This document shows, piece by piece, positions 16,413-53,737 of a stretch of DNA of 64,000 nt (position 1 is its first letter; the number at the start of each line of letters is the position of its first letter). The DNA is from Rhodovulum euryhalinum. Its GTDB lineage: Bacteria; Pseudomonadota; Alphaproteobacteria; Rhodobacterales; Rhodobacteraceae. The stretch is from positions 124,001-188,000 of the forward strand of contig NZ_SLWW01000003.1 of NCBI RefSeq assembly GCF_004342445.1, written 5' to 3'. The notes below the pieces were generated by a model, which made no database searches, was not told where the DNA came from, and saw only the letters and a program-made list of their open reading frames with translations. Made by a program: the position numbers and the translations under genes.

Positions 16413-16454
16413 ATCCCGTCCTCCATCCATGCGCTGCGCCCGGCCGATCGGGTG

Positions 16455-16674
16455 CGCCATGAGTATTTGGACCAAGAAGAAGACCGGAACCTCGTCCCGT
16501 AACCGTCCGTTAACGTTAACGCGCCAGTCTCCGACTCGCGGTACAGGCTGGAGAGCCGATGACCGCCCAAGGAGAAGGTCCCCCGCCCGGCGCCTCCACC
16601 CCGGTAACGACCGGGGGCGCCGTCCGGGTGGGGGGCTAACCCGTGGCCTTCTTCTTGGCAAAAATACTCATGGC
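16455..16674 (+). repeat. intergenic module, copy 1: inverted flanks, conserved core, GC hairpin
   Basis: Between the RHH-like gene and the GST gene. The left flank at 16455-16483 reads CATGAGTATTTGGACCAAG then AAGAAG; the right flank at 16648-16674 is nearly the same sequence inverted. Between them are a perfect GTTAACGTTAAC palindrome (16509-16520), a 41-nt core (16538-16578) matching copy 2 at 35 of 41 positions, and a GC hairpin (16581-16594 with 16616-16633). The core contains GGAG, then ATG ACC GC. From that ATG (16559) a 26-codon ORF runs to 16639. It may be a small RNA, leader peptide or passive repeat; function unknown. Confidence 0.6.
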
Positions 16675-16707
16675 TCTGTTGCCAGCCATGGCGCGCGCGG
16701 CCGGGGG

Positions 16708-53547: not shown

Positions 53548-53737
53548 TTCGGCGAGGATATTTCGGGCCAGAAGAAGGACAAGCGGACCCCCTGTCCGGG
53601 CCTTCCTGGGGGAAGGGGGGACAGGGGGCCTTCTCCTGGCGCGGTCATCGGCGTCCCCGCCTGTACCGCTCCGTCAGGGTGACGCATCGAGGTTAATGGT
53701 CCGTTGCTTCTTCTGGCTTCAAGTATCCCCGCCGGAG
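53548..53737 (-). repeat. intergenic module, copy 2
   Basis: Minus-strand orientation of the same design as 16455-16674. Flanks at 53705-53737 and 53548-53579 are inverted copies of a GGCGGGGATACTTGAAG- / GGCGAGGATATTTCGG-type motif ending CCAGAAGAAG. The 41-nt core is at 53629-53669. Next comes the composite hairpin 53588-53628 (CCCCCTGTCC/GGACAGGGGG around CCTTCC/GGAAGG). TTAACC stands upstream of the core where copy 1 has its GTTAACGTTAAC palindrome. The ATG-ACC-GC of the core opens a frame without an early stop here. Confidence 0.6.
53588..53628. terminator. composite GC hairpin after the transglycosylase gene
   Basis: The outer stem is 10 perfect pairs (53588-53597/53619-53628) and the inner stem 6 pairs (53601-53606/53611-53616) with loop TGGG. 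It may end transcripts from either side. It is also the hairpin of module copy 2. Confidence 0.5.

Follow-up and report, generated by a model that had tools for sequence, protein, structure and literature searches.

A putative split-guide RNA gene and its matching dispersed sites in Rhodovulum euryhalinum and other Rhodobacteraceae

Two intergenic modules of the same build lie 37 kb apart on opposite strands of a 64,000-nucleotide stretch of the Rhodovulum euryhalinum genome (positions 124,001 to 188,000 of NZ_SLWW01000003.1; hereafter the window, which belongs to contig C3 of the 3.79-Mb genome). The question raised by this locus is what the module encodes and why its two flanks resemble each other; a small RNA, a leader-peptide attenuator and a MITE-like repeat had been proposed by a model that saw the letters alone (the sequence-only reading).

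Layout of the two modules

Sequence comparison confirmed the modules at 16455-16674 and 53548-53737, in the order that had been described for both copies (left flank, TTAAC boxes, core, GC-rich hairpin, inverted flank) and with cores identical at 35 of 41 positions. The core has two parts: a hairpin that hardly varies, and a variable segment of about 11 nt, which equals the flanks of its own copy and thus accounts for flanks that are alike within each copy. The parts are as follows.

16461..16482, plus strand: copy 1, left site, GAG-TATTT-GGA-CCAAGAAGAAG (from the sequence; matched by the dispersed-motif pattern)
16510..16521, plus strand: copy 1, TTAA boxes TTAACGTTAACG, 28 and 22 nt before the hairpin
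16538..16566, plus strand: copy 1, conserved 29-nt hairpin (folding, alignment of copies)
16550-16553, plus strand: copy 1, apical loop GGAG, of which GAG is the candidate 3-nt guide part
16567..16577, plus strand: copy 1, candidate 11-nt guide segment CCAAGGAGAAG (corresponding site, CCAAGAAGAAG)
16577..16637, plus strand: copy 1, GC-rich hairpin 3' of the guide, possible terminator (folding)
16648..16669, minus strand: copy 1, right site, inverted, GAG-TATTT-TTG-CCAAGAAGAAG (sequence and motif pattern)
53707..53728, minus strand: copy 2, left site, GGA-TACTT-GAA-GCCAGAAGAAG, TACTT replacing TATTT
53694..53697, minus strand: copy 2, TTAA box, 28 nt before the hairpin
53641..53669, minus strand: copy 2, conserved 29-nt hairpin with apical loop GGGA, whose GGA is the candidate 3-nt guide part
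53630..53640, minus strand: copy 2, candidate 11-nt guide segment GCCAGGAGAAG (corresponding site, GCCAGAAGAAG)
53587..53630, minus strand: copy 2, GC-rich hairpin 3' of the guide, possible terminator (folding)
53556..53577, plus strand: copy 2, right site, inverted, GGA-TATTT-CGG-GCCAGAAGAAG (sequence and motif pattern)

The hairpins after the core gave folding z-scores of -3.67 (copy 1) and -4.62 (copy 2; 200 shuffles each), and the whole modules gave -3.78 and -4.96, both beating all 200 shuffles. Pfam assigns the neighbouring genes to GST and acyl-CoA dehydrogenase, with a 70-aa ORF, and to transglycosylase and FtsW/RodA. A leader peptide starting at the ATG ACC GC of the core, and with it an attenuator, is not supported: the ATG belongs to the 3' strand of the conserved hairpin, and in both copies the gene that follows the core lies on the opposite strand.

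Conservation and spread of the candidate RNA gene

Further copies, which the sequence-only reading had proposed to look for in related genomes, are present. The pattern CCGATGACCGCNNNAGGAGAAGG, composed of the second half of the hairpin and the guide type of the window, was found with up to two mismatches in 25 of 61 genomes including the own genome (reversed control, 0); the hairpin GCGGTACAGGC-N-GNNN-N-GCCGATGACCGC occurred in at least 117 stretches of the GTDB collection, and the 29-nt hairpin in nine of 385 class-wide alphaproteobacterial genomes, again including the own one, at up to one mismatch. The same RNA is widespread in Rhodobacteraceae (records named Rhodovulum strictum and R. bhavnagarense among them) and is found on plasmids of other Alphaproteobacteria and in a few Gammaproteobacteria; DNA similar to the RNA gene was seen on plasmids of Azospirillum, Rhizobium, Shinella, Thiothrix and Nitrosococcus. 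A hairpin search of 21 records gave matches with up to one mismatch in 15, and with up to three mismatches in 20, but at that setting the control also matched twice. One bearer of a Rhodobacteraceae-type module, JAFKDC010000024.1, is titled Enemella evansiae (an actinobacterium), and this record looks mislabelled or contaminated.

The sequences of 192 distinct copies, among which 124 distinct 11-mers were counted, indicate that pairing in the hairpin is retained through changes, since the loop-closing pair (T-A 141, G-C 37, A-T 7) and the outermost pair (G-C 146, G-T 29, A-T 14) vary in compensating fashion. TTAA lies within -42 to -20 of the hairpin in 139 of 184 copies (shuffles: mean 10.8, maximum 20), at -28/-27 in 110 instances and at -39/-38 in 35, a spacing which we take to be that of a CtrA-type box. 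In the window the TTAA boxes are at 16498-16521 and 53694-53697, and an 11-bp spacing is seen in many relatives; these boxes in the relatives suggest CtrA-type control of the RNA gene. A copy in Thiothrix has TATAGT, a -10-like box, 7 nt before the hairpin, and a copy in a Granulosicoccaceae MAG has a hairpin with a T-run 3' of the guide segment. The small RNA among the original proposals is supported, as a prediction, by the compensatory hairpin changes, the TTAA at fixed distance and these distant promoter- and terminator-like features.

Searches of Rfam 15 gave no match above a family's gathering threshold in the window or in nine loci with distant or related copies, and nothing up to E = 5 for window positions 16440-16700. 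The hairpin pattern found no exact match in the viral collection, for which reason a phage origin was rejected; one Thiothrix query gave three weak phage matches. In the titles and abstracts that searches of the open literature brought up, neither the RNA nor the motif is described. For P. denitrificans, 16 sRNAs are tabulated out of a list of 167 (PMC5107571), and none of these 16 could be equated with the element (762743 in the record of another strain; the numberings may differ).

Agreement of RNAs and sites, and location and turnover of the sites

The sequence-only reading had taken the within-copy likeness of the flanks as a sign that they pair with, or convert, each other. The likeness stands; each flank belongs to a motif dispersed between genes, and the agreement of the core with its flanks and with dozens of further sites had escaped that reading. 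The motif is NNN-TATTT-NNN-N11 (22 bp); it stands on either side of the RNA gene, and about 70 occurrences are spread between genes of the own genome. The pattern RTATTTNNNNNNNRAAGAA, which fixes part of the motif and detects only guide types ending in RAAGAA, gave 68 matches in the own genome (reversed control, 0), of which 67 loci were examined (C4:261933 was left out), three of them flanks of the RNA genes in the window.

The N11 of an RNA's own flanks reappears in the segment that follows the hairpin, and the last three nucleotides of the loop equal the three before TATTT. In 154 RNAs tested, excluding those with no usable TATTT side (29 left, 31 right), the guide matched the left flank at 9.54 of 11 positions (125 RNAs) and the right flank at 9.48 (123 RNAs); shuffled guides reached no more than 6.76 and 6.81. 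The three loop nucleotides were identical to the site in 113/125 (left) and 118/123 (right), against a maximum of 41 with shuffled loops; as the sequences are related and not independent, the outcomes of these permutations are not strict probabilities. Some guides match their own flanks poorly (e.g. L375). Loop and guide segment thus covary with the sites between species. Among 244 RNA-flank pairs, pairs with fewer than eight matches being dropped, position 6 was A in the site and G in the RNA in 200 and agreed in 39; of the mismatches listed at the other positions 1-10, 45 were A to G (site to guide) and five G to A; pairing of the RNA with the motif's opposite strand, wobble being tolerated, would bias them in this direction.

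The agreement holds genome by genome. Two RNAs are present in the own genome, whose sites fall into two types, of 52 and 15 loci; the three nucleotides fit in 51 and 14 of them. The 55 sites listed in genome G025 are of the types of two of its RNAs (CAACGAAGAA, 47; AACAGAAGAA, 8); this genome carries two further RNAs, with guides CACGGTGAAAG and CACAGTGAAAG, whose sites are invisible to RTATTTNNNNNNNRAAGAA. Other site types matched resident RNAs at 33/35 sites in G036, 33/34 in G020 and 12/16 in G026 (types in these four genomes were counted by hand). In G028 and G022, RNA matches appeared only at three mismatches, and the site pattern gave 3 and 10 matches. Two predictions were borne out: between two inverted sites of G020 (C3:228576/228709) lies an RNA whose loop is GGGA and whose guide, AACAGTAGAAG, has T and not G at position 6, and on pFER4, a Paracoccus replicon, the GAACGAAGAAG sites led to an RNA at 1037199 with guide GAACGGAGAAG and loop GGGG. 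A third site type on pFER4 (CP038202.1; 13 sites, e.g. 95053-95071) has CACGAAAGAA or CACGGAAGAA after ATATTTNNN; a trusted RNA match for it is absent from the pFER4 replicon, and its RNA may be on the chromosome. A site search in distant genomes found two in a Thiothrix genome and none in five other records, the pattern misfitting the spelling in Azospirillum and Nitrosococcus.

None of the 67 sites overlaps a predicted gene (gene model trained on the own genome), and they lie in 37 convergent, 29 tandem and one divergent gaps; a small comparison sample, the 27 window gaps longer than 60 nt, comprised 3, 17 and 7. At 48 of the 67 sites the downstream gene is antisense, with its end a median 18.5 nt away. 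In G025, 4/41 sites were within predicted genes, and gene-based counts for this genome are weaker than those for the own one. GC-rich inverted repeats, partly in shared modules, stand 5' of the motif, and nothing shared was seen 3' of it among the sites inspected. The folding test of the hairpin 5' of the sites was not discriminating (67/67 real, 66/67 shuffled). A module of about 110 bp (GGGGC..GCCCCGCTTGTCCGGCGTTGGGC...), itself a dispersed repeat, precedes 14 sites (L178, L179, L180, L182, L197, L205, L206, L221, L223, L226, L227, L241, L243, L246).

This location bears on a rather unlikely alternative, in which an antisense sRNA of Hfq or ProQ type pairs with transcripts of the opposite strand, chiefly convergent-gene 3' UTRs (CUUCUUCUUGG-NNN-AAAUA-CUC), and alters the ends or stability of mRNAs. 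The layout of promoter, hairpin, segment and terminator, the abundance and closeness of opposite-strand genes downstream of the sites, and site-guide differences that are mostly A to G, compatible with G.U pairing, are what such an sRNA would lead one to expect. Against it, 18 of the 67 sites lie in tandem gaps with no adjoining opposite-strand gene and are as often complete (15/18) as those in convergent gaps (30/37); in tandem gaps no strand is preferred (18 vs 11 in the own genome, 7 vs 11 in G025), and TATTT is retained with no counterpart in the RNA, though the search pattern itself fixes TATTT.

Comparison between genomes separates the RNA gene from its sites. Copy 1 adjoins matching sequence in relatives within the genus and in seven genomes of other genera, despite different guides; its neighbours in pFER4 are annotated as GST and acyl-CoA dehydrogenase, the same as in the own genome by Pfam. 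Because matching sequence adjoins it across genera, copy 1 is a resident gene and not a recently moved repeat, and of the MITE-like proposal there remains the part concerning the flanks, which are a dispersed REP-like motif. The neighbours of copy 2 were matched in only four loci, all of the genus. The sites themselves are less often shared: when 40 G025 loci were compared with the own genome, a shared site was seen in three gaps that match on both sides and in one that matches on one side, and in shared gaps the site carries each genome's own type.

Within the genus, 17 of 53 site records of G013 (those in the stretches fetched) share a gap with one of 64 own sites. In 14 of these 17 pairs the type was kept, and identity across the 3-nt part and guide positions 1-4 is 96/98, against 21/42 in the NNN spacer (Fisher p = 2e-11, positions taken as independent); the positions judged were those left free by the pattern, save for a half-fixed third base in the 3-nt part. 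The other three pairs switched type, both parts together. The matched positions of the sites are thus under constraint, and the same-gap comparison supports the view that individual sites are functional and that both parts of the guide are in use.

With these results, ordinary repeats or terminators whose resemblance to the core reflects coincidence, or shared ancestry with no pairing, are very improbable: the sites are intergenic and follow GC-rich sequence, as such repeats would, and the permutation tests, the two predictions and the same-gap comparison all speak against this reading.

A REP-like mobile system, in which the sites are ends of small elements that are spread or converted with the RNA and a putative enzyme, would account for the two inverted sites that usually flank RNA genes, the upstream modules shared by some sites (such as the 14 loci above), the few gaps shared between genera, and the whole-type switches. 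A further point in its favour comes from plasmid-like loci: of 11 inspected, 7 have a replication initiator gene at a distance of 0.3-0.9 kb from the RNA. We nevertheless consider it unlikely, given the synteny of the copy-1 RNA gene across genera, the matched site bases that are kept while the spacer drifts, which suggests function in place, and the absence of RAYT from the own genome; the sole indel seen between close replicons is also explicable as a deletion between repeats.

This indel concerns a 45-bp unit of hairpin and site, present in pFER4 (W01:C1:1005046-1005110) directly 3' of a terminator-like T-run and absent in pTAV4 (W02:C1:1230938-1230956), where insertion and deletion between repeats are indistinguishable. 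The initiator genes near the RNA (RepA, TrfA and Rep_3 types) are on small plasmids and one unnamed contig (L208, L211, L339, L340, L342, L344, L385), several with a toxin-antitoxin pair nearby, and several plasmid-like loci have sites of the same build. Proximity to initiators on plasmids is a possible lead to the origin of the RNA.

Candidate function and comparison with known systems

The reading that we prefer, at a probability of about 0.45, is that the RNA is a guide which addresses a putative protein to the dispersed sites as DNA, with the protein reading TATTT. Each copy would encode a short, folded RNA whose guide is split into three nucleotides in the apical loop and about 11 directly after the hairpin. 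Having the sense of the motif, the guide is complementary to the other DNA strand, or to RNA of that strand's sequence; a DNA target is favoured because tandem gaps show no preferred orientation and tandem sites are as complete as convergent ones. The guide would pair with the opposite strand on either side of an unpaired TATTT-NNN, usually with a G.T or G.U wobble at position 6, and the RNA would direct a separately encoded protein. A complex bound at gene 3' ends would most likely act on DNA topology or on a transcription boundary, effects also proposed for REPs. Counting against this reading and its generality are the few sites, or none, seen in distant genomes, the copies that lack a usable flank and the guides that fit their flanks poorly. 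Base pairing as the basis of the match, the DNA target, the protein partner and the effect are what we infer from these sequence patterns.

The RNA looks like a guide RNA and yet lacks tested features of the guide and repeat systems with which it was compared. In RAYT systems the transposase gene is flanked by inverted copies of the repeat. The present elements resemble REP/RAYT in their short dispersed repeats with apparent GC-rich hairpins at gene 3' ends and in a trans-acting gene between inverted copies, and differ in that the gene between the repeats encodes a guide-bearing RNA and not a transposase. TnpB and TldR guide RNAs have a scaffold followed by a 3' guide, and a T-rich motif 5' of the target; this order recurs here, whereas the scaffold is a single 29-nt hairpin. 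RAYT and TnpB were rejected as partners, since neither family was found in the own genome: Y1_Tnp (RAYT) had no match there and one among the 25 core-pattern genomes (G012), and the TnpB zinc ribbon (PF07282) had none there and was over the cut-off in two of the 25 (G012, G026). The accessible part of a study of GTAG- and CGTC-tagged repeats does not name Rhodobacter, Paracoccus or Roseobacter.

The bridge RNAs or seekRNAs of IS110/IS1111 are likewise short RNAs with two separate target-matching parts. The parts of a seekRNA are reported to match different strands, and the IS that encodes it also encodes its transposase, whereas here both guide parts carry the sense of the same strand; no DEDD transposase gene was found among the genes adjoining the window copies. 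TIGR-Tas also uses one small RNA with two short guide parts. TIGRs are reported to form arrays with 9-nt spacers, to address opposite strands and to have no adjacent motif, in contrast to single genes with 3 + 11 nt on the same strand and a constant TATTT. Trans-acting sRNAs of the Hfq type are similar in size and in the order of promoter, hairpin, seed and terminator, and differ in that the sequences matched here are a dispersed repeat that coevolves with the RNA, with no Rfam match. More tentatively, these features may define a new class of RNA-guided DNA recognition in Proteobacteria, with a 29-nt scaffold, a split guide of 3 + 11 nt, TATTT as adjacent motif, tens of self sites at gene ends, coevolving guide and sites, and several guide types per genome.

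If the preferred reading is true, bacteria hold a short RNA that addresses dozens of places in their own genome and fits none of the guide systems compared, and its 29-nt scaffold would be of interest to builders of RNA-guided tools. The variety of 11-mers among the distinct copies constitutes a natural experiment on the joint change of RNA and site. Even as an antisense sRNA, a single RNA coevolving with a family of gene-end repeats would be unusual.
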